The notes beneath the pieces are model-generated. The model was given only the letters and a program-made list of their open reading frames with translations, searched no databases and was not told the DNA's origin. A program made the translations under genes and the position numbers. A stretch of DNA of 64,000 nucleotides from Limnochorda sp. LNt (GTDB lineage: Bacteria > Bacillota > Limnochordia > Limnochordales > Geochordaceae), in contig NZ_CP141614.1 in NCBI RefSeq assembly GCF_035593265.1, positions 2,356,001 to 2,420,000 of the forward strand. The letters run 5' to 3'. Positions 16,640 to 55,367 of this stretch are shown here, one piece after another. How positions within the stretch are numbered: position 1 is the first letter of the stretch; every line of letters starts with the position of its first letter.

Positions 16640-16666
16640 GCGGCGAACCCCTCTCCACGCCTTAAC

Positions 16667-16696
16667 TTGCCCCGGGAAGGACCCCACGGGTAGAAT
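16667..16696 (+). promoter_or_regulatory. Candidate sigma-A promoter facing the small plus-strand ORF
   Basis: TTGCCC, 18-nt spacer, TAGAAT, followed about 85 nt later by a GTG with a ribosome site. It fires away from mtnP. Moderate match. Confidence 0.4.
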
Positions 16697-16779
16697 GGTT
16701 TTGCGCCCGTTGGGCAGCGCCCCTCCTCGCCAAGGTGCCGTCCGCGGGCGCCGGTCTTTGAGCGAAGGGGGCGGAGCCA

Positions 16780-17052
16780 GTGGCCGACGGCTCGTTCCGG
16801 CGCGTGTTTCATGACGAGGAGCACCACCGGGAGGAGTTCCTCGACCGCCAGCTGGAGGTGGGTTGGGAGGAGGACCCGGCTGACCGGGCGCTGGAGCCGG
16901 AGCGGTCCACATCCCTCGACCCGCTGGGCGAGGCGGGCGACGAGGCCGGCCCGGGCCTGCGCCCGTGGCGCCGTCACCGGGCCGCGTCGTCGACCCGGCG
17001 CAGCCCGGCCAGGACCGTCTCCGTCATGCGGCGCAACCGCACCGGCTCGTAG
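16780..17052 (+). CDS. Small acidic hypothetical protein
   Basis: 90 codons from a GTG preceded by GGGGGCGGAG. The first 65 residues are charged and acidic (FHDEEHHREEFLDRQLEVGW, then WEEDPADRALEPE), not like random translation. The last 25 codons overlap the 3' end of the converging minus-strand gene and look less natural. No family is recognised. It has its own candidate promoter and is one of the few plus-strand genes in the first 35 kb. Confidence 0.45.
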   Translation: MADGSFRRVFHDEEHHREEFLDRQLEVGWEEDPADRALEPERSTSLDPLGEAGDEAGPGLRPWRRHRAASSTRRSPARTVSVMRRNRTGS

Positions 17053-18683: not shown

Positions 18684-19429
18684 CAGAGGAGTCGGGTGAG
18701 GTCGGCCACTCCGATGGGCTCCCGCGAGAGGAGCGGCTCGCCGTACGCGACGCCGATCAGCTGACCGTAGTACCGATCCCGGCCCTCCACCCGGTCCGGG
18801 ACGTCCCGGCCCGCCGGGTTGACCTCGAACTGGCTGCGATACGCCCGGATGGCGGCTCTCTTGCGCTCGTACGAGCCCGACACGTCAACCACGGCGGCCA
18901 CCGGCGGGTGGAGCCTCAGGTGGGAGGCCAGGAAGTAGAGGGTGCGCGGCACCAGGTAGGGCTCCCCCGGCAGCTCCGTCTTGGTCAGCTTGCCGTAGAA
19001 TCGCCCTGCGTCGGCCAGCGCCGAGGCGGCCCAGTGGTCGGGGTGCGCGTCCTCCCAGTAGTGGGCCAGCAGGAGCCGGGGACGCAGCAGCCGCAAGATG
19101 GCCGCCACCAGCCGGCGATGATCCACCGTGTCGAAGAGATACCGGTTGGGCAGGTGGAGCGTCAGCCTCGCGGCCAGCCCCAGCTCCCGGGCCGCCTCGT
19201 GGCTCTCCTGGCGACGGGTCTCCGGCGTCCCGTAGGGCGTCGGCTCGCCGTCGGTGAGGTCGACGACGGCCACCCGTGCCCCCTGCCGGGCCAGACCGGC
19301 CAGCATGCCGCCCACGGCCAGCTCCACGTCGTCGGGATGGGCCCCCACGGCCAGCACGTCGACCGGGGCCTCGAGCCCGGTGCCGTACCGGCTGACGATG
19401 GCACGCTCGACCCACGATGCGCCTTGCAT
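18680..19429 (-). CDS. bshB1: PIG-L/BshB1-like GlcNAc deacetylase
   Basis: 249 aa from ATG 19429; a GTG at 19444 overlapping the upstream stop would add 5 residues. The zinc and catalytic motif is VDVLAVGAHPDDVELAVGG, with a second metal histidine in LAHYWEDAHPDHWAA; LTDGEPTPYGTPETRRQES and a GEPLLSREPIGV-type end are BshB1-like. BshB1 deacetylates GlcNAc-malate to GlcN-malate in bacillithiol synthesis; other PIG-L enzymes act on other N-acetyl sugars. It lies between a GT2 gene and the possible BshC-like gene. No GT4-type BshA is in this window. Confidence 0.72.
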   Translation of the reverse strand: MQGASWVERAIVSRYGTGLEAPVDVLAVGAHPDDVELAVGGMLAGLARQGARVAVVDLTDGEPTPYGTPETRRQESHEAARELGLAARLTLHLPNRYLFDTVDHRRLVAAILRLLRPRLLLAHYWEDAHPDHWAASALADAGRFYGKLTKTELPGEPYLVPRTLYFLASHLRLHPPVAAVVDVSGSYERKRAAIRAYRSQFEVNPAGRDVPDRVEGRDRYYGQLIGVAYGEPLLSREPIGVADLTRLLW

Positions 19430-19440
19430 CGGCGGACGAC

Positions 19441-20235
19441 TCACCCCTCGCAGGCGGCCGCGCCCAGCGCACGCTCTCGCCGGCACGCCTCGCCGCGCAG
19501 GGCCCGCCGCAGCACCTCCTCGTAGTAGCGGCGTCGCATGGCCGGCTCGTCCAGCCCGCCGCCGAAGCGGCGCTCGAAGTTGACCTTGTAGATGAGGGGG
19601 ACGGGGATCTCCACCACGCTCAGGCCGTGCCTCCAGGCCTCGATCCACACCTCCAGCGGCATGCCGTACCCCGGCTCGGTCAGGTGCAGCCGCTTGAGCG
19701 CCTCCACCTGGTAGCCCTTGAAGCCGCAGAAGGCGTCGGTGATCCCGAACCCGGTCAGCTCGTTGAGGCGGGCCGTCAGTTCGCGATTGATGGCGAGACG
19801 GTCGAGCGGGGGGCTCCCCTCCCCCTGCAGGGGCGCCAGGTAGCGGCTGCCCGAGACGATGTCCCAGCCCTCGTCGAGCCGCTCGAAGAAGGTGGGGATC
19901 CACTCGGGCTGGTGCTGCTCGTCGCAGTCGATGGTGACCACCTGGCGGTAGCCATGGCGGATGGCCCACGCGAAGGCGTCCGTCAGGGCCCGGCCGTAGC
20001 CCAGGTTGACCGGGTGCCGCAGGACCCGCACCGCCTCCAGCCGTGCCAGGATGCCGGGCGTCCCGTCGGTGGAGCCGTCGTCCACCACCAGCACGTCCGC
20101 CCTCGCCGCCGTCTCCAGGACACGCCGCAACACCCGCTCCGCCGAGCGCTCCTCGTTGAAGACGGGGATGGCGACCAGCCTATCCGCCACGGCCTCCCGC
20201 GTGCCCCCCACCCGCCGCGATCCGTCGTAGGTCAC
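19441..20235 (-). CDS. Family 2 glycosyltransferase (dolichyl-phosphate-sugar synthase type)
   Basis: 264 aa from GTG 20235, overlapping the barrel gene's stop by 4 nt (GTGA). The GT-A fold shows RLVAIPVFNEERSAERVL, VLVVDDGSTDGTPGIL, the metal-binding region VVTIDCDEQHQPEWIP, and VSGSRYLAP. There is no C-terminal membrane segment, so it acts at the cytoplasmic face or in the cytosol. It would transfer a sugar to a lipid phosphate or another acceptor. Tight coupling to locus A suggests glycosylation of the surface structure, but it may equally belong with the two downstream enzymes. Confidence 0.8.
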   Translation of the reverse strand: MTYDGSRRVGGTREAVADRLVAIPVFNEERSAERVLRRVLETAARADVLVVDDGSTDGTPGILARLEAVRVLRHPVNLGYGRALTDAFAWAIRHGYRQVVTIDCDEQHQPEWIPTFFERLDEGWDIVSGSRYLAPLQGEGSPPLDRLAINRELTARLNELTGFGITDAFCGFKGYQVEALKRLHLTEPGYGMPLEVWIEAWRHGLSVVEIPVPLIYKVNFERRFGGGLDEPAMRRRYYEEVLRRALRGEACRRERALGAAACEG

Positions 20236-23200
20236 GGGATATTGTAGCGATCCGCCTCGGGCGCCGTCCACCACCCCGAGAGCCGGACCACCCAGCCGGG
20301 CCGCCTGTCCAGCGCCAGGTCGGCGCCGGCCTGGGGCGCCTGCCCCCATGTGGCGGCCCGCCAGCCCAGCTCCAGGATGCCGCCGGTGTCGCCGGGCACC
20401 AGGAGGAAGAGGCCCGCGACGGCGGCGGCGCCCGTGGCCACGTCGAGCGCGGGGAGCGAGCCCCCGCCCGAGGGGACCTCCCGGGTCGCGAAGCCTTCCG
20501 CCTCGGCGAAGAGCCCGAAGGGCCCTGCCACGGCGCGACGCGCTCCCACGGACGCCTGCATCGTGTCGAGGCGGGCGCCTCGCTGCGGCTCCGGCACGCC
20601 TCGCCATCCGAGACGAGCGTAGAGGCCCGTCGTGCCGTCGGGCCCCGCCCGGCCACCGTCCCCGAGGCCCGCCCACCCCGAGAGCCGGGCCTCGCTCGCC
20701 CGGTCGCCCAGGCGGACCTCGCCGGAGACCGCCACGGGCCCTCTTTGCCACGCCCCCGCCAGTGTCAGCGTCTCCCCGGGCTCCTCCTCGCCCCAGCGCA
20801 GGGCCGCCGAGAGCCGGAGGTGGTCCGTGGCGGGCGCGGGGCGTGGGCGCAACCAGGCCTCGGCCTGCCAGCGGCCCGGCCTCCACCTCAAGAGGGCACG
20901 GCCGTAAAGCGCCTCCCAGGCGATGGTCGCCTCCTCCCACCTCAGGGAGCCCCGGGCCGCAGCAGCCTGGCTCGAGAGCCGCAGCGGCCCACCCGGCCTC
21001 AGCTCGCCCCGCAGGGAGAGTCGGGCCGCGTCGTCCGCCGGGAGCACCGACGCCCTCACCGCCGCCGAGCCCCCGCCGTCCCAGGCCCCCTCGAGCGCCA
21101 CCCAGCTCTCCCAGGGAGTCCCGGCGGCCAGGTGGGCGCCGAGCGCCCACAGGTCGAGTCCCGCCGCGGCCCGCAGGGGCCCCAGACGAAAGGAGGGCAG
21201 CGTCAAGCCCGCGGTGACGTACGGCGTCGCCCTCGGCCGGATGGCCGGGGAGTCGGGCCCCTCCGCGTCGACGACGACCCCTCCCACGCGCAGGGAGGCC
21301 ACCACCCCGCCCTCACCACCCGATGCGGGATGGGCCGCATGCCGGCCGGGGAGTCCGGCCTCCAGGCGTGCGTAGAGGTCCGAGGAGCGGCCCAGCCTCG
21401 CCCCGAGACCCCACCCTCTCGCCAGCGCGTGGTCGAGGCGGGTGCGCCACTCCAGTTCCCAGCGATCCTGGGCGGGCAGAGCCGGCCCGTCGCGTGAGCC
21501 CTCGCTCAGGCGGGCCGCCATGTCCGCGGCCAGGTGGCGGAGCCTCAGGCTCGTCCACCCGTCATCCGCCGCGACCCCCCAGCCGGCCTCGCCGGCTCCT
21601 TGCACCAGCTCGGCGCTCAGGCGCCACGCTCCCAGGCGACTCTCCCAGCCGGCCCCCCAGAGCGAGGGTGCGGCCGGCTCCTGGCGCGCCCCGGCCCAGA
21701 CCAGGCCCTCCTCCAGCGCGGCGCGAGCCACCGCGACCCAATCGGGTTGGGAACGCTCCCCGGTCGTCTTGTCGCTGCGCGACGCGACGACGGCCAGACC
21801 CCCTCGCTCCCAGCGCCAGGCCAGGCCGTGCTTCGGCCACGACGGGAGGGGGCCGAGGCTTAGCTCTTGGAGGGGAGGCGTCCCGCCCGACGGGAGGCGT
21901 CCCCCATCATCCCCTACCGCGCGGCGCAACCCCAGCGCGTCGAGGTCGCCGGCGGCCAGGAGGTGATGGCCGAGCCGGAGCTCGGCATGGGCGAGCGTCA
22001 CCCCATCGCCCGCCGCCGAGCCGGCCGCCCTCAACCCGAGCCCCGGTGCACGCGCTCGCAGCCCCATGCCTGCCCAACCCTCGACGGGTCCGCCCGGTGC
22101 CCAGACCAGCCGGCCCGCCGCATCGACCTCGACGGCACGCGCCAGGCCCGACGACGTCGCATTCGCCGGATCCCCGCGCAGGGTGACCGGCACCACCGCC
22201 CCCGGCTGCACCCGCACCACGACCGCCGGGCCCGCTCGCACCGGCTCCGACCCGCTGGCCGCACCCGGGTAGGCGCGCAGCACGTGCACCCCCTCGGCCA
22301 GCGCCATCGAGAAGTATCCGGCGGCGTCCACCTCGGCCCACGTGCCGTCCTCGGCCACGACCCACCACGGCTGCTCGGCGCCGCCCACCGACGGCCGCTG
22401 GAGCGTCCCCAGCACGAGTCCCCTGGGCTCACGCGCCTCGGGGTCGAGCTCGACAGCGGCCGAGACGGCAGGAGGGCGCCACTCCCCGCCGGGGGACCCG
22501 ATCCGGCAGGCGGCCTCCACCTGTACCGAGCGCAGTCCTGCGGCCAGCGGGGTCACCACCGCGTCCGCCTCCAGCACGGCGCGCCCCGGCCCGCCGGCCG
22601 GCCGGCGCCATACGAGCAGCGGCGGCCTCCAGGTGACGGCGTCACCGTCGCCCCCGGCGGCCGGCCGGATGCGCCACGAACCCGGCACCACCGCCAGCGC
22701 CGGGCCCAGGTCCACCTGCACCTCGGTGAAGCCCTCCACTCCCTGGCCGTGCAGCTCCAGGGTCACTTCGAGGCGGAGGCGGTCGCCCACGGCCACCCGC
22801 GGCTCGGCCCCGGCAGGGCGCACCTGCAGGCTCAGGGTAGCTGCGGGGGCCTGCGTCAGCCGCATCGAGACCGGCGTCGGCATCCCGGTGTCGGCCGTCA
22901 CCTGCACCTGCCGCGTCGCGGCCACGTACCCGTCGGCCTGCGCCTCGAGCCGGTAGGCCCCGGGCGTCAGCCCGCCGAAGCCGGCGCGCCCGTCGTCGCC
23001 CGTCGAGGCGGTGCGACCGAAGGCCTCGCCCTCGGCTGCCAGCCGTACCGTGGCCCCTGCCAGGGGCCGCCCGTCCGGCTCGCCCGAGACGGTCACTTGC
23101 AGCGCGCCCAGCGCACCGGCCTCCACCACCTGCAGGGCGCCGCCGGCGATGATGGGGCCGTAGATACTCGCCGAGATGCCGTAGCAGTAGGCGCCGGGCT

Positions 23201-23912
23201 GCATGACGGGGACGCCGGGATCGCCAGGGCTCAGGCGCAGGAGGTTCCAACCCGCCTGCACGGGGTAAGGGTAGCCGTACCCCACCGCCATCGACGTGGA
23301 GCAAGGTCCGCCGCCGCCCGGCCAGAACTGGACGAAGACGTGGCCAGGCTCGTCCCGGTAGACGTAGAGGTCGAGCGTCCGGCCCGAGCCGAGGGGATAG
23401 GGGTCGGGCCAGACCAGGGCCGGGGAGTGATCGACGGATGACGGGGAGAGGGTGTAGGCTATGTCGACCTCGTAGGGGCCCGCCACCGCCGCGTCCTCCC
23501 ACCGCGGCCCGAACCGCCAGACCACGTCGCCCAGCCATCCTCCGCCGGCCTGATGGACCGCCACGACCCCCGTCCGCATCGGGTGAAAGGTGAGAGGATC
23601 GGTCGGGTGCCGCTGAAAGGCCCACTCCAGCCGGTCGAGGGGAATGCGGGCATCACCGGGCCCGGTCAGATGGGGCTGCTGCGCCTCCATGGTGAGCGCC
23701 ACCTGCTGGGCGGAGGGATGGGTCCCGATGGCGACGACCCCCACCACCGCCTTCTCGCCGGGCCCGACGGCGACGCTCGGGGCGAGCCCCGCCACCCCGT
23801 CGGCTCCGATCCACGGCTCCCACGCCCCGGCGGCTCCCGGTGCGGTGATCACCCCTATCAGGGCCACCACGACCATCCCGACTCCACCGCCGGCCCGCCG
23901 TGCACCCCTCAT
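20232..23912 (-). CDS. Locus A: giant secreted outer-membrane barrel protein (usher-like)
   Basis: 1226 aa from ATG 23912, which overlaps the PapD-like gene stop by 4 nt (ATGA). A signal peptide (residues 1-30, cleavage after GAAGA) is followed by a beta-rich N-terminal domain with two cysteines (about 31-270), a carboxypeptidase-regulatory/CnaB-like domain (about 270-345; PLAGATVRLAAEGEAFGRTA, GLTPGAYRLEAQADGYVA), Ig-like segments to about 600, then roughly 550 residues of alternating-polarity strands with Trp/Arg/Gly turns (for example GLYARLGWRGVPEPQRG) typical of a large outer-membrane barrel. Layout and coupling resemble a chaperone-usher operon, but I see no diagnostic usher motif. Confidence 0.6.
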   Translation of the reverse strand: MRGARRAGGGVGMVVVALIGVITAPGAAGAWEPWIGADGVAGLAPSVAVGPGEKAVVGVVAIGTHPSAQQVALTMEAQQPHLTGPGDARIPLDRLEWAFQRHPTDPLTFHPMRTGVVAVHQAGGGWLGDVVWRFGPRWEDAAVAGPYEVDIAYTLSPSSVDHSPALVWPDPYPLGSGRTLDLYVYRDEPGHVFVQFWPGGGGPCSTSMAVGYGYPYPVQAGWNLLRLSPGDPGVPVMQPGAYCYGISASIYGPIIAGGALQVVEAGALGALQVTVSGEPDGRPLAGATVRLAAEGEAFGRTASTGDDGRAGFGGLTPGAYRLEAQADGYVAATRQVQVTADTGMPTPVSMRLTQAPAATLSLQVRPAGAEPRVAVGDRLRLEVTLELHGQGVEGFTEVQVDLGPALAVVPGSWRIRPAAGGDGDAVTWRPPLLVWRRPAGGPGRAVLEADAVVTPLAAGLRSVQVEAACRIGSPGGEWRPPAVSAAVELDPEAREPRGLVLGTLQRPSVGGAEQPWWVVAEDGTWAEVDAAGYFSMALAEGVHVLRAYPGAASGSEPVRAGPAVVVRVQPGAVVPVTLRGDPANATSSGLARAVEVDAAGRLVWAPGGPVEGWAGMGLRARAPGLGLRAAGSAAGDGVTLAHAELRLGHHLLAAGDLDALGLRRAVGDDGGRLPSGGTPPLQELSLGPLPSWPKHGLAWRWERGGLAVVASRSDKTTGERSQPDWVAVARAALEEGLVWAGARQEPAAPSLWGAGWESRLGAWRLSAELVQGAGEAGWGVAADDGWTSLRLRHLAADMAARLSEGSRDGPALPAQDRWELEWRTRLDHALARGWGLGARLGRSSDLYARLEAGLPGRHAAHPASGGEGGVVASLRVGGVVVDAEGPDSPAIRPRATPYVTAGLTLPSFRLGPLRAAAGLDLWALGAHLAAGTPWESWVALEGAWDGGGSAAVRASVLPADDAARLSLRGELRPGGPLRLSSQAAAARGSLRWEEATIAWEALYGRALLRWRPGRWQAEAWLRPRPAPATDHLRLSAALRWGEEEPGETLTLAGAWQRGPVAVSGEVRLGDRASEARLSGWAGLGDGGRAGPDGTTGLYARLGWRGVPEPQRGARLDTMQASVGARRAVAGPFGLFAEAEGFATREVPSGGGSLPALDVATGAAAVAGLFLLVPGDTGGILELGWRAATWGQAPQAGADLALDRRPGWVVRLSGWWTAPEADRYNIP

Positions 23913-25045
23913 GGAGCGGACCTCTCCCCCGGGTGGCTGGCAAGGGCCGCACCGAAGGTCACCTCCACGTCCTGCGCCGCGACGGGCCGGTCTCCGTCGA
24001 GCCAGACCACCTCCACCCGGTACGTCCCCGGCGGCAGGTGCGCCGGCCATGGCACCTCGACGCCCCCGACCTCCCCCGGTCCCACCTGCGCCCCCGAGAG
24101 GCGCTGCGAGGCCACCGGCTCGTCGTCTCTCGCGAACGTCACGGCCAGCTGGGGTCGCACCGTCACGGCGCCCCGGTTGTGCACGGAGGCCACCAGCGAA
24201 GGCGGTGACGCCTCGGACGACAGGGCGAGGCTCAGCCCCCCGCGTACCATGGCCACCTGGTAGGGGCCGATCACGTCGAAGCGCGCCACTTTGGGCACGG
24301 GGTCGGGCGACCCGTCCGGGTGCAGCCGTGCCTCGATGGTGTAGCGACCGGGCGGCAAGAGGGGCGGCTGCCAGCTCGCCCTCAGGAGCCGGCTGGCCCC
24401 CGGCAGCAGGCGCCCCGGCCCGAGCCAGAGACGCTGCCGGGTCTCGCCGTCCGGCCCCACGATCAGGGCCTCGACCCGTGCCATGGTGCCGACGGCCCCC
24501 GGATTGCGCACCCGCGCCACCACCTCGATGGGCTGCCCCGCGGCCTCCTGCTGCGCCCACACCCCCTCCAGCACCACGGGCGCGCTCGGCCAGGCCTCTG
24601 GTCCGTGCAGCAGGACCAGGACGCCCACCTTGAGCGTGCCGGTCAGGACCGGCGCCGAGATCAGGGCTGCGGCGTAGGCGCCCTCGTCGGGGCATCCCGT
24701 CACCTCCAGCCAGAGCTCGCGCCTCTCTCCCGGCGCGAGAGCAGCGTCCTCCCAGTCGGGACGCAGCAGTGCCCGGGCCGACGCCCGGGCCGCGGCATCG
24801 TCGAGGAAGACGGGGAAGCCCTCCAGGTCGTGGGTGAGCCCCACCACCTCCACCCGTGCCTGCACCGGCCCGTCGGCCACGTTGGTGACCTCCACCGGCC
24901 CGAGGCGAGCCGGGCAGCCGGGAGGGGCCTCCAGCACCAGGGGGCCGACCCGCAACGAAGCCAGGGCTCCATCCCCGGCCATCTGTGACGCCGCCAGGAG
25001 CACGCCCACCAGCACCCACCGATGCAGCCGTCCCGCCCGCTTCAT
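23909..25045 (-). CDS. Locus A: secreted PapD-like multi-Ig protein
   Basis: 378 aa from ATG 25045 (GAGGAGG upstream). The signal peptide ends near ASQMAGDGALA. The mature part is about three Ig-like beta-sandwich repeats: VEVTNVADGPVQARVEVVGL, PIEVVARVRNPGAVGTMARV and SLVASVHNRGAVTVRPQL, each with PPGRYTIEARL- or PPGTYRVEVVWL-type closing strands. This resembles periplasmic chaperones and DUF916-type proteins but is longer than PapD (about 230 aa, two domains). It lies between the subunit and barrel genes. It could be a periplasmic chaperone or an adaptor domain protein. Confidence 0.6.
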   Translation of the reverse strand: MKRAGRLHRWVLVGVLLAASQMAGDGALASLRVGPLVLEAPPGCPARLGPVEVTNVADGPVQARVEVVGLTHDLEGFPVFLDDAAARASARALLRPDWEDAALAPGERRELWLEVTGCPDEGAYAAALISAPVLTGTLKVGVLVLLHGPEAWPSAPVVLEGVWAQQEAAGQPIEVVARVRNPGAVGTMARVEALIVGPDGETRQRLWLGPGRLLPGASRLLRASWQPPLLPPGRYTIEARLHPDGSPDPVPKVARFDVIGPYQVAMVRGGLSLALSSEASPPSLVASVHNRGAVTVRPQLAVTFARDDEPVASQRLSGAQVGPGEVGGVEVPWPAHLPPGTYRVEVVWLDGDRPVAAQDVEVTFGAALASHPGERSAP

Positions 25046-25076
25046 CCGGGCCGCCTCCTCTCCGACGAGCCGGCTC

Positions 25077-25565
25077 TCAAAGGGGGGCGGCCAGCACCAG
25101 GTCGATGTCGGCGGCGTAGTCGCCGGGAGCATCGTCGTAGCTGGCCGTGTACTCGAAGGCGAACGTGATCGTGACGCCGGACTCGCCGGTGGGCTGGCCG
25201 GAGGCGACGTCCTGGAGCGACGCCTGGCCCACCGTCCCCTGCCGGCCGGATGCCTGCCACTGCACGAGGTTGACGAGTGGCGTCTCGCCGGGGAGGACCG
25301 GCCGACGATCGGCCGCCAGCCGGAGCACCCAGGGCGCGTTGGATCGGAGCTGCACGGAGAGCGACCCCTGCGCCCTCTCTCCGGGACGGGCCTGGAGCGT
25401 CACCTCCTGGCCCGACGGAAAGGTGATCTCGGCGGCCTCCTTGACCGTCACCCGGAGCCGCACCGTCGACGCGGACGCCGGCGATGGGACGACGGCTCCC
25501 AGGGACACCCCCAGCGACAGCAGGACGATGACGAAGCTTCGGGACCGACTCGACACGGGTCGCAC
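25077..25565 (-). CDS. Locus A: small secreted beta-sandwich subunit (pilin-like)
   Basis: 162 aa from GTG 25565, with GGGAGG 9 nt upstream. The signal peptide is residues 1-33 (VVPSPASAS). The mature 130 residues look like one all-beta domain, with LRVTVKEAAEITFPSGQEVT at the start and a final strand APGDYAADIDLVLAAPL. A C-terminal PG-x-Y-x3-I-x-L strand is a common feature of spore-coat-U/archaic pilin domains that are completed by strand exchange. No cysteines were seen. It is first in an operon with a PapD-like protein and a barrel, so an exported surface or fibre subunit is the best guess. Confidence 0.55.
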   Translation of the reverse strand: MRPVSSRSRSFVIVLLSLGVSLGAVVPSPASASTVRLRVTVKEAAEITFPSGQEVTLQARPGERAQGSLSVQLRSNAPWVLRLAADRRPVLPGETPLVNLVQWQASGRQGTVGQASLQDVASGQPTGESGVTITFAFEYTASYDDAPGDYAADIDLVLAAPL

Positions 25566-25772
25566 GGGGCGACACCTCCCGGGTGCGGCGCGGCCTCGGG
25601 AGGGTAGCGTGACGATCGTTAGTCTAACTGACGCCCCGCAGACGCGCCAGCCGTCTCCTGGACGCCGTGAACGGCAGGCTCCTCGGCAGGGCTCGATGGA
25701 GAGGTTGCAGGGGCTGTCAGCTCGTGCACAGCAGCGCGCACGCCCGGGGGCGCCCCCCTGCGCCTCCGTCGA
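25566..25772. other. Gap between ahcY and locus A, with an 11-bp palindrome
   Basis: About 200 bp. It holds GTTAG-T-CTAAC at 25618-25628, a perfect inverted repeat about 55 bp before the locus A start codon, which could be an operator. No clear sigma-A promoter was found. Confidence 0.35.
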
Positions 25773-27014
25773 TCAGGTGCCCTCCTGCCAGCCGGCCAGA
25801 TAGCGCCGCTGCCGGTCGGTGAGGACGTCCAGGGTGACGCCCATGGCCTGCAGCTTGAGGCTCGCCACCTCGCGGTCGATGGCCTCGGGCACGGGATACA
25901 CCTGCGGCGCCAGGCCGGTGCCCGCCTCGCCCACCAGCCACGCCACCGAGAGGGCCTGGTTGGCGAAGCTCATGTCCATGACCTGGGCAGGGTGACCCTC
26001 GGCAGCGGCCAGGTTGACCAGCCGGCCCTCCCCGATCAGGCGCAGCCGCTTGCCGCCCGGCAGCTCGAACTCCTCCACGCCCGGTCTCACCTGCCGGCGT
26101 GCCCTCGCCAGGCGGGCCAGCGCCTCGACGTCGATCTCGACGTTGAAGTGGCCGGCGTTGGCCAGGATGGCGCCGTCCTTCATCCGCAGCAGGTGCTCCT
26201 CGCGGATGACCCCGGTGTTGCCCGTGGCGGTGACGAAGACGTCGCCCAGGGGCGCGGCCTCCAGCATGGGCATGCAGGCGAAGCCGTCCATGACGGCTTC
26301 GAGGGCCCGCAGCGGCTCCACCTCGGTGACGATGACCAGCGCGCCCATGCCACGGGCCCGCGCCGCGATCCCGCGGCCGCACCACCCGTAGCCGGCCACC
26401 ACCACCGTGCTGCCCGCCAGGAGCACGTTGGTGGCTCGCAGCAGCCCGTCCAGCGTCGACTGGCCGGTGCCGTAGCGGTTGTCGAACATGAACTTGGTGC
26501 GGGCGTCGTTGACGGCCACGACGGGATAGCGGAGCACCCCGTCTCGTGCCATGGCCCGCAGCCGCGTCACGCCCGTCGTCGTCTCCTCGGTGCCGCCCCG
26601 CACGCCGCCCAGCAACTCCTGCCGCTGGGTGTGCAGCGTGGTGACCAGGTCCGCCCCGTCGTCCATGGTGACGTGCGGGCCGTGCTCGAGGGCCTGGTGG
26701 ATGTGGCGGTAGTACTCGTCGGAGTCGACGCCCCGCCGGGCGAACGTCGGGATGTCGTAGACCTCGTTGAGGGCGGCCGTCACGTCGTCCTGAGTGGAGA
26801 GCGGATTGGAGGCACACAGCCTCACCTGCGCGCCCCCAGCCGCCAGCGTGCGCACCAGGTTGGCCGTCTCCGTCGTGACGTGCAGGCACGCCGAGATGCG
26901 CAACCCCTCGAGAGGGCGCTCGCGGCGCCAGCGCTCCCGGATCTGCCGCAACACCGGCATGAAGGAGTCGGCCCACTCGATGCGGGCCCGGCCCTTTTCC
27001 GCCAGCGCCGTCAT
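25773..27014 (-). CDS. ahcY: S-adenosyl-L-homocysteine hydrolase
   Basis: 413 aa from ATG 27014, overlapping the metK stop by 4 nt. Motifs: [40 protein letters not shown] (hinge and catalytic Lys/Asp region shortly before), NAD loop [20 protein letters not shown], and [20 protein letters not shown] with [10 protein letters not shown]. Length and lack of the eukaryotic insert match bacterial/archaeal short forms. It removes SAH, the product of methyl transfer, giving adenosine and homocysteine. It shares the metK transcript, so SAM should also regulate it through the riboswitch. Confidence 0.95.
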
Positions 27015-28336
27015 CGCCGCTCGTCCGTCTCGGAGGCCAGGGCTGCGGCCGCTTGGGCAGGCCCCTCTGCGTCGAGCCGCCGGCGCGCCTCCTGCCGCAG
27101 GGCATCGACCAGGTCGGTGCGCTCCCAGGGCAGATCCAGCTCCGGCCGCCCGAAGTGCCCGTAGGCGGCCAGCTGGCGGTAGATGGGTCGCCGCAGTCCG
27201 AAGCGCTCGATGAGCGCCGCCGGCCGCAGGTCGACGAGCCGGGCCACGAGGGACTCCAACACGGAATCGGGCAGCTTGCCCGTCCCGAAGGTCTCCACCA
27301 TCAGCGAGACGGGCCTGGCCATGCCGATGACGTAGGCCAGCTGCACCTCGCAGCGGTCGGCCAGCCCGGCCGCCACCAGGTTCTTGGCGATGTAGCGGGC
27401 GGCGTAACTGCCCGTGCGGTCCACCTTGGTCGGATCCTTGCCCGAGAAGGCGCCGCCCCCATGGCGCGCCATGCCCCCGTAGGTGTCGACGATCACCTTG
27501 CGGCCCGTCATGCCCGAGTCGCCCAGAGGCCCCCCGACCACGAAGCGCCCGGTGGGGTTGACGAAGATGCGGGTCGCAGGCGTCAGGTACTCGGCCGGGA
27601 TGACGTGGCGCACGACGTGGGTCTCGATGTCGGCCCGCAGCCGCTCCATGGGCACGTCGGGATCGTGCTGCGCCGAGACCACCACGCTGGTGACCGCCAC
27701 CGGCTCCTGCCCCTCGTAGGCGACGGTCACCTGGGTCTTGCCGTCGGGCCGCAGGTAGCCGAGAAGGCCGCTGCGCCGCACCTCGGCCAGCCGCCGCGCC
27801 AGCGCGTGCGCCAGCACGATGGGCAGGGGCATCAGCTCCGGGGTCTCCCTGGCGGCGTAGCCGAACATCAGCCCCTGGTCGCCCGCCCCGAGGATGTCGT
27901 AGGCGTCGGCGGGCCCATCCGGGCGGGACTGGGCCTCCAGCGAGCGGTCCACGCCCCGGGCGATGTCGGGCGACTGCTCGTCCAGGGCCACCAGCACCGC
28001 GCAGCCGTCCGCGTCCAGCCCGTACTCGGCCCGATCGTAGCCGATCTCCTTGAGCGTGCGTCGGGCGACCTTGGCCACGTCGACCCGGGCCGTGGTGGTG
28101 ATCTCCCCGAAGATCAGCACGAGCCCCGTCTTGGTGGCCACCTCGCAGGCCACGCGCGCATACGGGTCCTGCTGGTAGACGGCATCGAGGACCGCGTCGG
28201 CGATCTGGTCGCAGACCTTGTCGGGGTGGCCCTCGGTCACCGACTCCGACGTGAACTCCCACCGGCGCGCCGACTTGCCGGCTTGCGCTCGCGCGGCATC
28301 CTCGCGCTTGGGCCAGCCATCCCGGTGCATGGACAT
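27011..28336 (-). CDS. metK: S-adenosylmethionine synthetase
   Basis: 441 aa from ATG 28336. Motifs: [20 protein letters not shown], the signature [32 protein letters not shown] and [14 protein letters not shown]. About 25 residues precede the usual MetK start (the catalytic His motif begins near 35), so translation could begin slightly later, but no better start was seen. A C-terminal tail extends past the usual GHFGR region. It forms SAM from methionine and ATP. It is preceded by a strong sigma-A promoter and a SAM-I riboswitch, and is coupled to ahcY. Confidence 0.95.
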
Positions 28337-35393: not shown

Positions 35394-37048
35394 ATGTACG
35401 TGCGCACCGTCACTTCCAAGGGCATCCAATACGCCCAGCTTGCCCATAACGTCCGGGACCCCAAGACTGGACAGCCCCGGGCCCAGGTGCTGTACACCTT
35501 CGGCCGGGTCGACCAGCTCGACCTGGACGCGCTGCGCCGCCTGGTGCGCAGCATCGCCCGGTTCCTGCCCCCCGACGAGCAGGCCCAACTGCAGAAGGAT
35601 CTCGGCATGGAGTGGCCCTTTCGGTACCTGGGCTCCCTGAAGCTGGGCGGGACGTGGCTTTCGGACGGGCTGTGGCGGCGGCTGGGCATCCAGAAGACCT
35701 TGCAGCGCCTGCTCAAAGCGCGCCACTACCAGACCCCCATCGAGCGGCTCCTCTTCGCCATGGTGGCCAACCGGGCCCTGGCGCCGTCCAGCAAGCTGGC
35801 CATCGAGAAGTGGGTGGCGCAGGACGTCTACATCGACCAGCTGCCCGCGGTGGAAGTCCACCAGCTCTACCGGGCCATGGACTTTCTGCTGGAGGCTGCC
35901 GAGGCGATCCAGCGCGAGGTCTTCTGGACGCTGGCCAACCTCTTCAACCTCGAAGTGGACGTCATCTTCTTCGATACGACGACGGCGTACTTCGAAATCG
36001 AGGGCGAGGACGCCGACGGGTTGCGCCGCTGGGGGCACAGCGCCGATGATCATCCGAAGATGGCCCAGGTGGTCATCGGCTTGGCCGTGACCCGGGACGG
36101 CATCCCGGTCCGCTGCTGGGTCTGGCCCGGCAACACCGGCGACCAGAACGTCGTGGCCGAGGTCAAACGGGATCTCAACGGCTGGAAGCTCAACCGGGTG
36201 GTCGTGGTGTTGGACACGGGCTTCAACTCCGAGGCGAACCGCCGCATCCTGCAGGGCGCCGGCGATCACTACATCATCGGGGAGAAGTTGCGGGTGGGCC
36301 CCCAGGGGTGCCCGCGGAGGCGCTGCGCCGGGCGGCAAGTACCGCAGGCTTCCCGACGGGCTGGAGATCAAGGAGGTCGTGGTCGGAGGGGATAGCGCCG
36401 CCCGCCGGCGCTTCGTCATCGTCCGCAACCCCGAGGAGGCCGAGCGGGACCGCCAGAAGCGGGAGTCCATCCTGGCCGAGCTTCGCCAGCGGCTCGAAGC
36501 GCTCAAACAGAAGCAGGGCGAGGCGCATACCAAGGCAGCCTGCGAGCTGCGGGCCCACGAGACCTTCGGCCGCTACCTGCGCCAGACGTGGGCGCGCGAC
36601 TGGTCATCGACGCGGCCAAGGTTCGCCGAGAAGCCGCCCTCGACGGGAAGTTCGTGATCAGCAGCTCCGACGACTTTCGCCCGCCGAAGACCTGGTCTAC
36701 GGCTACAAGCAACTCTGGCAGGTGGAACGGGTGCACCGGGACCTGAAGCACACGGTCGACGTCCGGCCGATGTACCACCGGCTCGACGACCGCATCCGGT
36801 CCCACGTGCTGCTGTGCTGGCTGGCCCTCCTCATGATCCGGGTGGCCGAGAACGAGACGGGCCAGACCTGGCGACAGATGCGGGATCTGGTCGCCCCCAT
36901 CGACGTGGGCCGCCACGCCACCGCCCACGGCGAGGTCTGGCAGGTCCGCCCCCTCACCGAAGAGCAGAAGGCGCTGTTTCAGGCCCTGAAGGTCGACCGA
37001 CCGCCCCACTACCTGAAGATTGTGACGCCCACCCGAAAAACGGCGTAG
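35394..37048 (+). pseudogene. IS1634-family transposase, four single-base frameshifts
   Basis: Intact for 300 residues (MYVRTVTSKGIQYAQLAHNV, then VDVIFFDTTTAYFEIEGED with a catalytic Asp, VVVVLDTGFNSEANRRIL with a second). It then changes frame near 36303, 36334, 36592 and 36675. Adding one base at a C/G, G, G and T run respectively restores one 552-aa protein, with ELVYGYKQLW-like DLVYGYKQLWQVERVHRDLK carrying the third acidic residue. Length matches the family. Inactive if real; but all four lesions are one-base contractions in homopolymers, so basecalling error is possible. Confidence 0.85.
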
Positions 37049-50758: not shown

Positions 50759-51304
50759 GTGTACAAGCGCGCGTGGTGGACGGGCGCCCTGCTGCTCCTG
50801 CTCGCGGCCCCGGCCGCGGCGGCCGCCAGTCAGAGCACCAACGCCAGTCAGAGCATCACCATCAACGTCCCTGCCATCAACTTCGTCAACGTGGCCGGTG
50901 GCCCCATCACCTTCGAGTTCGACCAGACCCACTGGCCCGGCGACCCCGAGATCGGCGGCGCCCTGTCCGACGTCTCGGAGGTCGCGAGCGGCACCGCCAC
51001 GGTCCTCTGGCTGACCAACGCCAGCCGGACCAGTCCCGTCAAGATCACCGTCGGCGTCAACGAGGCACCGCCGGAGTGGGTCAGCCTCTTCAAGGTTGAG
51101 CTGGCGTCGCCCAGCCTGCAGGCCGGCAGCGGCAGCTGCGGAGAGATCCCGAGCGGCGGCGTCCCGCTCACCACGTCGGCGCAGCCCCTGGTCACCGGCA
51201 TCCACAACAAGGTCTGCATCGCCGAGGCCACCTACTCGGTCGCCGTCGATCTGGACGGCTACGGCACCTACAGCCCCACCGTGACCTGGACCATCGGCCC
51301 CTGA
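50759..51304 (+). CDS. Locus B: secreted beta-sandwich subunit 1
   Basis: 181 aa from GTG 50759 (GGAGG 7 nt upstream); an in-frame ATG 7 codons earlier lacks a ribosome site. Signal peptide about 1-22 (LLLLLAAPAAAAA). The mature part begins SQSTNASQSITINVPAINFV and looks like one all-beta domain with two cysteines (SGSCGEIP, NKVCIAEA), probably a disulfide. It ends GYGTYSPTVTWTIGP, a strand like that of exported fibre subunits. It has no sequence identity visible by eye to the locus A subunit, but is placed identically. Confidence 0.55.
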   Translation: MYKRAWWTGALLLLLAAPAAAAASQSTNASQSITINVPAINFVNVAGGPITFEFDQTHWPGDPEIGGALSDVSEVASGTATVLWLTNASRTSPVKITVGVNEAPPEWVSLFKVELASPSLQAGSGSCGEIPSGGVPLTTSAQPLVTGIHNKVCIAEATYSVAVDLDGYGTYSPTVTWTIGP

Positions 51305-51329
51305 GGGGCCGGAGGCGGGTCCGGTCGTC

Positions 51330-51848
51330 GTGCGCGAGGTCGGGCTGCTGATGGCAGCCCTGGCGGTCTGGGGGTTGGCGGGCGTCTCCGCCGCGGCGGG
51401 CCCGGCTCCCGGCCCCCAGGTCGTCGTCTCCGGCGACTGGACCCTGACCGTCGAGGGTGTGGGGGTCCCGACCCTATCGGACCTGCCAGCCTTGCCGACC
51501 GACTGGGAGAGCCCGATGCCCGTCGCTCGAGCCACCATCCGCCGAGCGGGGGGCCGGTCGCCGGGATGGCAGGTGCTCATCCGGAGGGTCGACGGCCTGT
51601 GGCCGTCGGGGGTCACGCTCGAGGCCTGCCTGACCGACCAGGGACGGGGAGGTACGGTGCAGAGCCCCTACCGGTGCTCGGACCGTTCATTCGTCGAGGT
51701 GGGCACGCAAGACACGCTCTTCTTTTGGGGGTCCGGCAATCCGTCCGACGTCGGGATCGGGCTACGCCTGTCGGGGATCTCCGTCGACGTCCCGCCCGGC
51801 ATCTACATGACGGCGGTGGTGTACACCATTGTGGCGGGCTCGCCGTAG
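51330..51848 (+). CDS. Locus B: secreted beta-sandwich subunit 2
   Basis: 172 aa from GTG 51330; an ATG at 51351 is possible. The signal peptide spans about residues 1-23 (AALAVWGLAGVSAAAG). The mature domain is beta-rich with two cysteines (TLEACLTDQG and YRCSDRSF) and closes VDVPPGIYMTAVVYTIVAG, a PG-x-Y strand like that in spore-coat-U/Csu-type subunits. It overlaps the next gene by 20 nt. A second subunit or tip protein is plausible. Confidence 0.55.
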   Translation: MREVGLLMAALAVWGLAGVSAAAGPAPGPQVVVSGDWTLTVEGVGVPTLSDLPALPTDWESPMPVARATIRRAGGRSPGWQVLIRRVDGLWPSGVTLEACLTDQGRGGTVQSPYRCSDRSFVEVGTQDTLFFWGSGNPSDVGIGLRLSGISVDVPPGIYMTAVVYTIVAGSP

Positions 51849-52659
51849 TCCCTGGCCGTGGCTCGTTTTGCTGGTGGCGCTGGCCGCCACCGGCGAGGGC
51901 CGGGCTCAACCCCGGATCGGCCTCATGGGCGACCTGGTGCACGCCTACACGGTCCAGCCCGGTCAATCGGTCGAGGGGCTGGTGGTGCTGGCCAACCCCC
52001 AGGACCGGCCCCAGACGGTGCGGCTCTATCTGCAGGATTACCGCACCGACGACCAGGGACATCCCGTCTACGCCGAGCCGGGAAGCCACGCCCGCTCCAA
52101 CGCTCCATGGATCCGTCTCGGGCAGTCGACGGTGACCGTCCCGCCCGGCGAGCAGCTGGCCGTCGCCTACGCCATCCGCGTCCCTCCCGATGGCACCCTG
52201 ACGGGCACTTACTGGAGCGCGCTGATGGTGGAGCCCGGCGAGGCCGAGCCCGGGGCGGCCTCGCCGGCACCCGACGGCCCTCGGGTCAGCATCCGGCAGG
52301 TCTGGCGCTACGCCATCCACCTCGTCACCGACATCGACGGCCCGGGCGAGGCGCGCCTCGCCTTCGTGCGTCCCCGCCTGCTGGAGGATGCCGGTGGCCT
52401 GGCGCTCCAGGTCGACATGGTCAACGAGGGCGTGAGATGGCTGCGGCCGCAGGTCTGGCTCGAACTCTACGACCAGGAGGGCCGCCTGGCGACGCGCGTG
52501 GATGGGGCACCGGCCCACCTCTACCCGGGTGACGTGGCACGCCAGCGCCTCGAGCTGGGCTCGCTGCCCCCGGGCCCCTACGAGGTCCTCCTCGTCGCCG
52601 ACAACGGCGATGCCCATGTCTTCGCCGCTCACTACCGGTTCGTCGCGGGCTCCCACTGA
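51829..52659 (+). CDS. Locus B: secreted PapD-like chaperone/DUF916-type protein
   Basis: 276 aa. Signal peptide 1-26 (PWLVLLVALAATGEGRAQ). Then two Ig-like domains: YTVQPGQSVEGLVVLANPQD and TVRLYLQDYRTDDQGHPVYA followed by SNAPWIRLGQSTVTVPPGEQ and VPPDGTLTGTYWSALMV in the first, LQVDMVNEGVRWLRPQVWLE and SLPPGPYEVLLVADNGD in the second. Size and two-domain layout are those of pilus chaperones, and the first domain also resembles DUF916. It probably acts outside the inner membrane to escort or cap the two subunits encoded just upstream. The barrel gene follows directly. Confidence 0.65.
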   Translation: MWRARRSPWPWLVLLVALAATGEGRAQPRIGLMGDLVHAYTVQPGQSVEGLVVLANPQDRPQTVRLYLQDYRTDDQGHPVYAEPGSHARSNAPWIRLGQSTVTVPPGEQLAVAYAIRVPPDGTLTGTYWSALMVEPGEAEPGAASPAPDGPRVSIRQVWRYAIHLVTDIDGPGEARLAFVRPRLLEDAGGLALQVDMVNEGVRWLRPQVWLELYDQEGRLATRVDGAPAHLYPGDVARQRLELGSLPPGPYEVLLVADNGDAHVFAAHYRFVAGSH

Positions 52660-55367
52660 GTGCCCGTCGCTGCCCGGGCGCGGACGGGAGGCGGCCGGGG
52701 GCCTCTTGCTGGCAGCGCTGCTGGCCGTCTCGCTCCCGGTCAACCGCGGCGCGATGGCGGCGGCCCCCGTGGCCGATGGAGCGCCCTGGGCCGGCGGTCC
52801 TGGCGCGGCCGCTGACGGGTCCCGTCACGGCGGCGCCCGGCTCGCCGGTCGCGCTCCTCGCGCGTCTCGACAACGCGGGCTCCGTCCCGCTGGAGCTGAC
52901 GCCCAGCGCCGAGGCGCCGCCGGGCTGGGAGCTGATCGTGCCCCCTCCGGCCGTACAGCTGGCCCCTCGCACCTGGCGCACGGCGCTCATAGCGGTGCGG
53001 CCCGGCCCGTCGGTCCCGGCCGGCTCGTACGAGGTGGCCGTCACGTGGCGGGACGCGTTCCATGGGGTCTCGGCCCCGGTGCGCTTCCGGCTGACGGTGC
53101 CGGCCATCGGGAGGCTCGACGTGGCCCTCCTGGAGTCGCCGGCCTACGTCGTCGCCGAGGGTTATCGGCTCCGTTTCGTCGTGCGCAACGCCGGCAACCG
53201 GTTCGAACGGATTCACGTGCAGGCGAGCGACAACCTGGGGCTCGCGATCCGGGCCCAGCCAGGGGCGCTGCGGCTCGAGCCCGGGCAGTCGGCGGTCGTC
53301 ACGGTCTCGGTGGAGGTGCCCTCCGCGCTCGCTCGCACCGTCTACCACCGGGTCGTGCTGGCCGTCTCCAGCGAGGACGACCCCGAGGTCCGGGCCGCGG
53401 CTGCCGCGTCGGTGGAGGTGGTGGCACGCACGGCCCCGCTTCGAGCGGCCTACCGGTGGTTTCCCCTGACGGCCACCTGGACGAGCCACGCCACGCCCTC
53501 CGGCCCGGGCCTCGACTGGAGCCTGGTGGGGAGCGGCCGCCTCCGGGAGAGCGGTGACGGGACGCTGGCCGTCGACGTGTCGAGCCAGGCGGCCCGACTG
53601 ACCTACCGCCTCCCCTGGCTGACGGTGACGGCAGGCCGACAGCCGTTCTCGCTGTCGCCCCTCACCCGCTTCGACCGGCGAGGCGACGGCCTCGACGTGC
53701 GCGTCCGGGGTGGCCCCTGGGAGTCGGTGCTGCAGGCCATGGCGACCCCCCACGGCGTGGGACTGGGCGCCCGCCTCGCCTACGCCCTCGACGGCGTGCA
53801 CGACGCCTCGCTCCAGCTGGCCACCCTGCCGGAGACGGGGGAGGTGGTGGCGTCGGCCACCGCCCGGATCACCCCCTGGCAACGCCTCTACCTGGAGGCC
53901 GAGGCGGGCTGCACCGGTCGGCTCGAGACGGGGTGCACCTCCCACGCCCTGCGGACGGACGCCACGCTCGCCCTTGCCGGCTGGAGCCTCTCGGCCCGCT
54001 GGGACGACCGCGAGGCCGGGTACGCAGGCCGTCCGGCGGGCGAGCGCCAGCGCGAGGCCACCCTGGCGGTGGACCTCCCCGCGTCGTGGCGACTCTCGGG
54101 GACCGTGCGCGAAGCCCTCTCAGGGGCGCCGGGGAGCGGCACCGCCGCCACGACGGCCGAGCACCGACTGCGGCTCACGGGCCACAGGGGCGGCAGCACG
54201 GGATTGAGCCTCGAGCTCGGGCGTCGCGAACAGGCCAGCGAGGCCACCCACGTCCGGCAACGGATGGACGAGACGCGGCTCTACGTCAGCCACCACATGG
54301 ACGGGGGGGCGCTGGTGGGCCAGGAGATCGCCTACGCCCGATGGCAGGATCTGCCGGAGGGCCCCCGGTCCGCCTCCTGGGGCTACGGCCTGTCGGCCTA
54401 CCTGCCCGTCGGCGCGGCCAGCGTGGGACCGTTCCTCCGGGTGGAGCGCCCGGTGGAGGGAGAGCAGACGGGCGGCTTTCACCTCTCGGGGGGCGTGCAA
54501 TGGCGGTGGCGACTCCCCCGCTCCATCTCCATCGCAGTGACGACGGGGTGGAAGGGCGGCCCCACGGCCGAGCAGACCGCCTCCGTCGACCTGCGCTACC
54601 AGCCGCCGGCCGCAGCCGGGCTCCGGCTCACGCTGCAGGCCGCCCGCACGGACGTGTCTCCCTGGTCGTGGCAGCTCAAGGCCACCTACCAGGCACCCCT
54701 GGAGCTGCCGACGGGCAAGCGCCCCGACGTGGGGAGCCTGGAGGGTCGCGTCGTCGACGCCGATGGCGCCCCGGTGCCGGGAGTGGTGGTGCGCCTGGGC
54801 ACCCTCTCGGCCGTCACCGACCGCGACGGCCGCTTCGACTTCCCCGCCGTCAGCCCCGGCGTCTACTACCTGACGCTGCGCACCGGGCCCGTCGAGAAAG
54901 AGGTCTGGAGCCTGCCGCAGACACCCTGGCGGGTCGCGGTCGCGCCCCGCCAGCGCCTGCAGCAGACCTTCCGGCTGGTGACGCCCGCCCGCGTGTGGGG
55001 CCACGTGGAGGTGGCCCTCGACGGGAGGACGCCGGGGCGATCCGGGGATGCTCCCGCAACCGTCGTCGCCCCTCCCCCCGTCTCGGTCGGGGATCTGGTC
55101 GTCGAGGCCATCGGCGACTCGGGCACCCGCACGGTACTGACGGCGACGGACGGCAGCTTCTCGCTCGAGGGACTCCTGCCCGGGGTCTACCGTCTGCGAC
55201 TGCGACCCGAGGGGCTGCCCCCGCTCTACGTGCCGGACCCCGCCGAGGCGACCGTCACCCTGTCCCCCGGCGAGCGCCGGCACGTCATCCTCACCCTGCG
55301 GCCGGTCGTACGACGCATCGAGGTGTACGAGGGTGGCGAGCTGGTGCCCGAGGCACCCGCGCCCTAG
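52660..55367 (+). CDS. Locus B: giant outer-membrane barrel protein (usher-like), apparent frameshifts at 5' end
   Basis: An open 863-codon frame runs from 52776, but it lacks a signal peptide. A signal-like LLLAALLAVSLPVNRGAMAA lies in another frame. Removing one base at the G5 run 52697-52701 and one at the C5 run 52764-52768 gives one 901-aa protein starting at the GTG directly after the chaperone stop. After the signal come two NEW3/Ig-like domains (about 40-240), a long barrel-like region (about 245-690; GYGLSAYLPVGAASVGPFLR), then two carboxypeptidase-regulatory-like domains (VEGRVVDADGAPVPGVVVRL-like; SLEGLLPGVYRLRLRPEG) at the C-terminus. The order of domains differs from locus A. No classical usher motif was recognised. 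Confidence 0.6.

Follow-up and report, generated by a model that had tools for sequence, protein, structure and literature searches.

Within a 64,000-nucleotide stretch of the genome of Limnochorda sp. LNt (contig NZ_CP141614.1, positions 2,356,001 to 2,420,000; hereafter the window), four genes, B1, B2, B3 and B4, stand head to tail on the forward strand and make up what we call locus B. We propose, at a probability of about 0.6, that locus B encodes a chaperone-usher-like exporter of fibres in which the outer-membrane barrel has no plug and the chaperone is of the WxLIP type. This reading is favoured since the full set of parts is conserved together across genomes, B4 has the plan of an usher, and B1 falls among donor-strand subunits in structure comparison. 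The window has a G+C content of 72.7% and its host genome is a single contig of 3.02 Mb; two cultured Limnochordia are diderm in thin-section microscopy, according to PMC11456536. An earlier note, made by a model from the sequence alone, had described two secreted beta-sandwich proteins, a two-domain PapD-like protein and a barrel-like protein in a row, and the open reading frames (ORFs) and coding-like base composition of the locus bore this out. The features of locus B are as follows.

50759 to 51304, + strand: B1, 181 amino acids (aa), small secreted protein of the beta-sandwich type, candidate for the main subunit of the fibre (ORF and coding composition)
51330 to 51848, + strand: B2, 172 aa, second small secreted protein, beside the chaperone-like gene, candidate subunit of the fibre tip or base
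51829 to 52659, + strand: B3, 276 aa, secreted, two immunoglobulin (Ig)-like domains, WxLIP homologue by sequence, candidate periplasmic chaperone
52610 to 52775, + strand: B4, signal-peptide frame (ORF table and sequence); the change to the body frame falls within about 52745 to 52776
52776 to 55367, + strand: B4 body, 863 aa, candidate usher-like outer-membrane protein
52797 to 53099, + strand: B4 Ig-like domain 1, NEW3/NPCBM_assoc type (model strands 8 to 108; Pfam)
53115 to 53423, + strand: B4 Ig-like domain 2, FixG_C type (model strands 114 to 216; Pfam)
53451 to 54719, + strand: B4 barrel, residues 226 to 648, 26 consecutive strands and no plug insert in the model
54732 to 55013, + strand: B4 transthyretin-like domain 1, CarboxypepD_reg, residues 653 to 746 (Pfam, model)
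55098 to 55304, + strand: B4 transthyretin-like domain 2, CarboxypepD_reg, residues 775 to 843 (Pfam, model)

Conservation of the gene set across genomes

Searching 72 genomes of the class for B3-like proteins (E<=1e-10) returned 19 matches in 16 of the 72. Six of these, all high-scoring, were of the locus B type with gene order kept, and they came from five genomes (G000, G005 twice, G010, G009 and G006). G005 carries a full four-gene set whose B4 ends in three LysM domains; G006 has three small proteins followed by a B3-like protein and a B4-like protein, the latter, by eye, without the N-terminal Ig pair. In G012 and G013 (L084 and L085), only the last part of the B4 gene is present, with the same neighbours as in G010, as if locus B had decayed there.

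The search was extended across phyla by scanning one genome per species, 84,980 species in all, with B3 from three genomes as the query and no B1, B2 or B4 sequence in it. Results showed 68 loci in many phyla of two-membraned bacteria, including Thermodesulfobacteriota and other Deltaproteobacteria, diderm Bacillota of the Halanaerobiales (Orenia and one metagenome-assembled genome), Planctomycetota, Gemmatimonadota, Verrucomicrobiota, Ignavibacteriota, Bacteroidota, Chlorobiota, Rhodothermota, purple sulfur and other Pseudomonadota, Synergistota, Armatimonadota, Elusimicrobia, Aminicenantes, Schekmanbacteria and Zixibacteria. One-membraned groups such as Bacilli or Actinomycetota were absent from the 68 record titles, in a scan that was pattern-based and not exhaustive. 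When genome contigs were scanned with B4 as a single protein no relatives were found, whereas the chaperone alignment did find loci.

A hidden Markov model of the Ig and barrel part of B4, without the CarboxypepD_reg domains, was built from the proteins of the window, L048 and L050 and run on six-frame stretches. A B4 homologue (E<1e-5) was present in 65 of the 68 loci, or 64 of 67 once L098, a repeat of the L050 contig and thus training material, is set aside. In 63 loci it strictly adjoined the chaperone gene on the same strand, and in L111 and L116 the open frames overlap the chaperone; the barrel part alone was matched (E<1e-3) in 40 of the 68. B1 and B2 were counted in the 55 loci with at least 1.5 kb of upstream sequence, each locus being left out of its own model, and homologues lay directly upstream of B3 in 53 of them (B1 type in 52, B2 type in 30). 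The usual order starts with one to five B1 genes, followed by a single B2 gene and then by B3 and B4, with upstream B1 matches reaching five or six per locus and an extra B1-type gene after B4 in some. Since B4 and B1/B2 co-occur with B3 in this way, locus B represents a real conserved system and chance clustering is excluded; the earlier note's view of a machine is, for locus B, strongly supported by this cross-phylum co-conservation of all parts.

The chaperone-like protein B3 and the barrel protein B4

By sequence, B3 is a homologue of WxLIP. When the B3 profile was compared with that of five WxLIPs of lactic acid bacteria, both domains were covered (97.1%, E 5.2e-11), and among PDB sequences it matched EfmWxLIP1 (E 1.1e-7; 5.6e-5 with a broad alignment). 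In Pfam, the 51 members of the family (the B3 alignment took 50 of the 53 listed chaperone ORFs; L116, L149 and L155 were left out) matched 16 families, with WxLIP_PGBD (DUF916) in 16 members, WxLIP_HBD (DUF3324) in 5 and fn3_5 in 27, and the PapD model in none of the 51; the WxLIP score of the window's own B3, 20.4 bits, lies below the 27.3-bit cut-off. NCBIfam held no family name for the B3 family. Of the PapD-like two-domain protein that had been described here, the two domains stand; a PapD-like sequence was not supported, the protein being WxLIP-like. Arg89, Ser90, Asn91, Trp94 and Arg160 are invariant in all 51 rows, Arg160 within the alternating stretch that closes domain 1. PapD chaperones have their subunit-anchoring lysine at the end of domain 1, and the likeness of the two positions is suggestive only. 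In a tree of B3, the five Limnochordia rows did not form one group (4 changes; 0% of 200 bootstrap trees), and the sole well-supported grouping joined L048 with Orenia (100/97).

Since WxLIP is the only firm sequence kinship of B3, the main rival to fibre export is a static surface complex of the WxL type, in which B3 would stay bound and hold B1 and B2 at the peptidoglycan or outer membrane and B4 would serve as an anchor or wall tether without export. WxLIP is reported to bind WxL, with an AlphaFold2 docking that inserts a hairpin strand of WxLIP into WxL beside the N-terminus of WxL (PMC10599100); we read this contact as chaperone-like and count it, with the homology of both B3 domains to WxLIP, in favour of fibre export. 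Like locus B, WxL operons have subunit genes directly before WxLIP: among five that we fetched, an annotated WxL gene was immediately 5' of WxLIP in three, while one of the other two has its WxL genes after WxLIP and one has an unnamed preceding gene. The SPOR and LysM domains found on B4 relatives would also suit a tether. We nevertheless consider the static complex unlikely. B1 and B2 failed to align with WxL domains by profile (3.2 and 2.7%) and resemble, in the case of B1, fibre subunits; a barrel of 26 strands is bigger than a tether requires; and B3 has no C-terminal hydrophobic helix, ending about 25 residues past its last strand (from sequence and alignment), unlike WxLIP, which has a C-terminal membrane helix according to PMC10599100.

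The AlphaFold2 model of the window's B4 (mean predicted local distance difference test score, pLDDT, 87.1; predicted template-modelling score 0.64) has the plan Ig-Ig-barrel-transthyretin-transthyretin, with the barrel formed by 26 consecutive strands joined by short links. Pfam agreed: weak NEW3/NPCBM_assoc and FixG_C-like Ig matches precede the middle of the protein and two CarboxypepD_reg domains follow it, as the earlier note had read them. Across 40 family members, CarboxypepD_reg occurred in all, NPCBM_assoc in 27, SPOR in 8 and Porin_4 in 4 (the B4 alignment took 39 of the 42 barrel ORFs of at least 850 aa; L094, L106 and L139 were left out), and L048 B4 bears three C-terminal LysM domains. 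SPOR and LysM are peptidoglycan-binding domains, so their place at the C-termini of B4 relatives suggests that the C-terminus is periplasmic, as in ushers. The best ten solved structures found by Foldseek were all FimD or PapC (E 6.7e-15 to 1.9e-11). In VIA structure comparison, MtrB came first for the barrel (Z 18.2, 398 residues aligned, root-mean-square deviation 5.5). Neither a propeller nor an unrelated enzyme came out of AlphaFold2, Foldseek or VIA, for the barrel or for the pilin-like subunits, in keeping with the architecture first proposed.

A far-diverged member of the classical chaperone-usher pathway (e.g., near its archaic or alternate branches) that has lost its plug would account for the shared plan and the Foldseek usher matches, as well as for a weak CooC_C match in the C-terminal part of B4 (E 0.013) and a G-D ... 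R-G element that by eye only resembles the usher hairpin before the plug. We regard this as quite improbable, since none of the window proteins matches an Usher, PapD or fimbrial Pfam model, profile comparisons with E. coli K-12 proteins were negative, and B3 sides with WxLIP, which seven K-12 chaperones do not (4.8%). Usher (PF00577) gave no matches in the window genome and none over the cut-off in the 72 class genomes, with a positive E. coli control; it was not among the 11 Pfam matches of the window's B4, nor among the 25 families listed, out of 29, for the 40 B4-type barrels. PDB sequences matched the B4 family only through CarboxypepD_reg-type or chance matches, and NCBIfam held no family name for it.

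The signal peptide of B4, GGLLLAALLAVSLPVNRGAMA, lies in the frame of an ORF listed from 52502, other than that of the body, and its frame starts within the 3' end of B3. As a result, the first ~38 residues of the 901-aa protein read earlier are out of frame; the large barrel-like protein stands, with a body of 863 aa. The 863 codons are open throughout with normal coding composition, and B4 is in a single frame in L048 and L050. A slip in sequencing or a recent break may explain the frame shift.

The small secreted proteins and a proposed route of export

Small ORFs upstream of B3 numbered 90, of which 64 were assigned by eye to B1 and 20 to B2; the six left out were unrelated or out of frame, response regulators among them. 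Judged from their profiles, the B1 (65 members) and B2 families are homologues of one another (95.9%, E 5.6e-9), so that the subunits, reported earlier to show no obvious identity, share ancestry. Their PG-x-Y terminal strand was indeed present in A1 (of locus A, below), B2 and B3, whereas the feature conserved family-wide is a Tyr with a terminal strand. Neither family had significant Pfam or PDB-sequence matches, and the B1 family had no NCBIfam match. Against K-12 pilins, B1 and B2 gave profile scores of 11.8 and 20.3% without alignment. Kinship with WxL proteins was examined because the last strand looks similar; for B1 and B2, and likewise for A1, it was rejected by profile comparison, Pfam WxL being absent from both families and from each of the 72 class genomes (a control with Lactococcus was positive).

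The AlphaFold2 model of B1 (pLDDT 83.4) has strands at residues 41-46, 74-86, 94-100, 108-115, 119-122, 142-149, 151-163 and 175-180. Residues 16-40 are strand-free, though 31-40 are confidently placed, and the N-terminal segment is unbonded. In VIA, 46 of the 50 rows were fibre subunits (39 from chaperone-usher pili and 7 archaeal; Z 5.8 to 7.6), row classes being set mainly by structure title, in a PDB where pili are over-represented. The other four rows were 9ifr, 4je0, 9cse and 8k2h; absence of a family from VIA lists was not taken as exclusion. Within the 39 chaperone-usher rows, alignment started at residue 34-41 in 36 and at 22-26 in 3, which suggests that residues 24-39 stand in place of the pilin donor strand. 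Close to the mature N-terminus, residues 33-37 form an alternating hydrophobic segment: strongly hydrophobic residues occupy position 33 in 95% of rows and positions 35 and 37 in 91% each, and Thr34 occurs in 41 of 62.

In the route that we propose, all four proteins would cross the inner membrane by means of their signal peptides. In the periplasm, B3 would bind B1 and B2, a strand near the end of its domain 1 completing their sandwich, and the Ig domains at the N-terminus of B4 would serve as the docking site for the resulting complexes. The subunits would then thread the pore of B4 and be linked by donor-strand exchange, each B1 inserting its alternating N-terminal segment into the groove of the following B1. 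B2, a single-copy gene beside that of the chaperone, could start or end the fibre. Since the barrel has no plug, the pore would be gated by a domain of B4 outside the barrel or be kept filled. The C-terminal domains of B4 are probably periplasmic and in some relatives are extended by peptidoglycan-binding domains.

It is also conceivable that B4 delivers B1 and B2 one by one to the cell surface or into the medium, B3 being their chaperone, and that no fibre forms. The weak structural matches of B1 (Z <8) and the short N-terminal lead ahead of its alternating segment agree with such a role; several B1 paralogues per locus and an unbonded N-terminal segment fit polymerizing subunits better, making single-protein export an improbable reading.

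Several results weigh against fibre export. Two Chlorobi loci, L132 and L142, have a B3-type gene without B1, B2 or B4, L150 has a weak B4 (E 0.02), and the window's B4 changes frame after its signal peptide. No usher-type plug was found inside the B4 barrel in the AlphaFold2 model, which is a prediction. The template-modelling scores of B4 to ushers in Foldseek were just 0.22-0.31, which a different arrangement of the domains may explain. PapC scored Z 16.5 and 16.4 in VIA, behind MtrB and level with OccK porins (~16), so that the barrel by itself is no pointer to ushers specifically. Homology of B4 to K-12 ushers was sought by profile with the whole protein (18.9%), the barrel (7.1%) and the first part (0.2%), and in each case none was detected. 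Comparison of B3 with the seven K-12 chaperones gave 39%, the aligned part being the signal peptide and first strand only. For B1, Z was below 8 in all VIA rows, a level that VIA itself warns may reflect a common arrangement, and the best Foldseek E was 0.011, with AP2 mu2 and GH123 domains mixed in.

Known systems, locus A and other observations

Like the classical chaperone-usher systems (FimC/FimD/FimA, PapD/PapC/PapA), locus B combines subunits, a two-Ig protein and a large barrel set between N- and C-terminal sandwich domains; the best solved matches of B4 in Foldseek are ushers, and the model of B1 resembles pilins in fold. It differs in its plugless B4, with 26 predicted strands and two Ig domains ahead of the barrel, and in that no part of it matches the Usher, PapD or fimbrial families. 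Considering the missing plug, the other chaperone family and the lack of an Usher or PapD match, we do not file locus B under the classical pathway, although it may work like it. WxL/WxLIP clusters of Gram-positives have, in WxLIP, a protein to which B3 is homologous over both domains by profile, and likewise have subunit genes directly upstream of it; unlike them, locus B has an outer-membrane barrel and diderm hosts, B1 and B2 have no WxL domain, and B3 has no membrane helix. The MtrB-type 26-strand porin, the best VIA match of the barrel, differs in gene company and flanking domains, and locus B has no cytochromes. Archaeal donor-strand filaments and cannulae (bundling pili, CanA) belong to the top structural neighbours of B1 (Z 7.6 to 5.8); to our knowledge they work without an outer-membrane usher.

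We found no description of this gene set in the open-access literature, as covered by titles and abstract openings (most subscription papers lie outside that scope), which is weak evidence of novelty. The absence of a Pfam model for B1 and B2, and of an NCBIfam name for B1, B3 and B4, points in the same direction. If correctly read, locus B would extend the short list of known outer-membrane fibre routes by an assembly system that is widespread and unnamed, in groups with little described machinery (Ignavibacteria, Planctomycetota, Gemmatimonadota, Limnochordia and others), and its plugless barrel poses the question of how the pore is gated. Through the kinship of B3 and WxLIP, pilus-like assembly in diderms can be linked, in a testable way, to the WxL clusters of Gram-positives, and this link bears on the origin of one-membraned from two-membraned bacteria. 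A further idea, which we hold to be rather doubtful, is that locus B represents a separate ancient fibre pathway of the diderm outer membrane, of which the Gram-positive WxL-WxLIP pair would be a remnant, the barrel having been lost with the outer membrane and the chaperone kept as a wall protein.

Locus A lies on the opposite strand some 25 kb away (20232 to 25565), as the earlier note had placed it, and consists of three genes.

25077 to 25565, - strand: A1, small secreted protein, borderline relative of B1
23909 to 25045, - strand: A2, secreted, about three Ig-like domains, B3 homologue
20232 to 23876, - strand: A3, large secreted protein with a CarboxypepD_reg domain followed by a barrel-like C-terminal part

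The note had taken locus B for a second, permuted copy of locus A. The chaperones are homologous (A2 against B3 families, 97.6%, E 3.8e-12) and A1 is borderline to B1 (70.8%), whereas A3 matches B4 (59%) in a CarboxypepD_reg-type stretch only and the barrels are not detectably related; the reading as a permuted copy was not supported. Nor are there two small secreted proteins in locus A: one is separate (25077 to 25565), and A3 instead opens with a beta-rich segment closing in a 'PY...YTLSP' strand. The domain said to precede the barrel is there, as one CarboxypepD_reg/SpaA domain ahead of the barrel-like part. Barrel-like alternation was found in the C-terminal part of A3 (z 4.3) and in B4 (z 6.1), against -2.4 to 0.9 in soluble controls. 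Loci A and B resemble cousins that split long ago, or a single chaperone type serving two barrels. A1-A2-A3 stand between S-adenosylhomocysteinase and, by eye, a glycosyltransferase-like gene, with the same order and neighbours in G001, G002, G003 and G012. The gene row around them is conserved (window 15830 to 28336; L051, L052, L053 and L056), and, tentatively for all names except S-adenosylhomocysteinase, we take it to be S-adenosylmethionine synthetase, S-adenosylhomocysteinase, A1-A2-A3, a glycosyltransferase-like, a deacetylase-like, a conserved and an MTAP-like gene.

A multi-Ig WxLIP/B3-like protein of ~510-590 aa was also seen beside a secretin gene (PF00263) in L057 (6967 to 10022), and phmmer found secretin neighbours in L031, L033, L037, L041, L046, L047 and L066 (the last on the L031 contig); this protein could mark a second system, built on a secretin, that uses the same type of chaperone. 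The B3-type gene of L132 has a gene for a sigma-54 response regulator immediately upstream. Elsewhere in the window, a run of ORFs at 35394 to 37048 resembles, by eye, a transposase-type gene in pieces.

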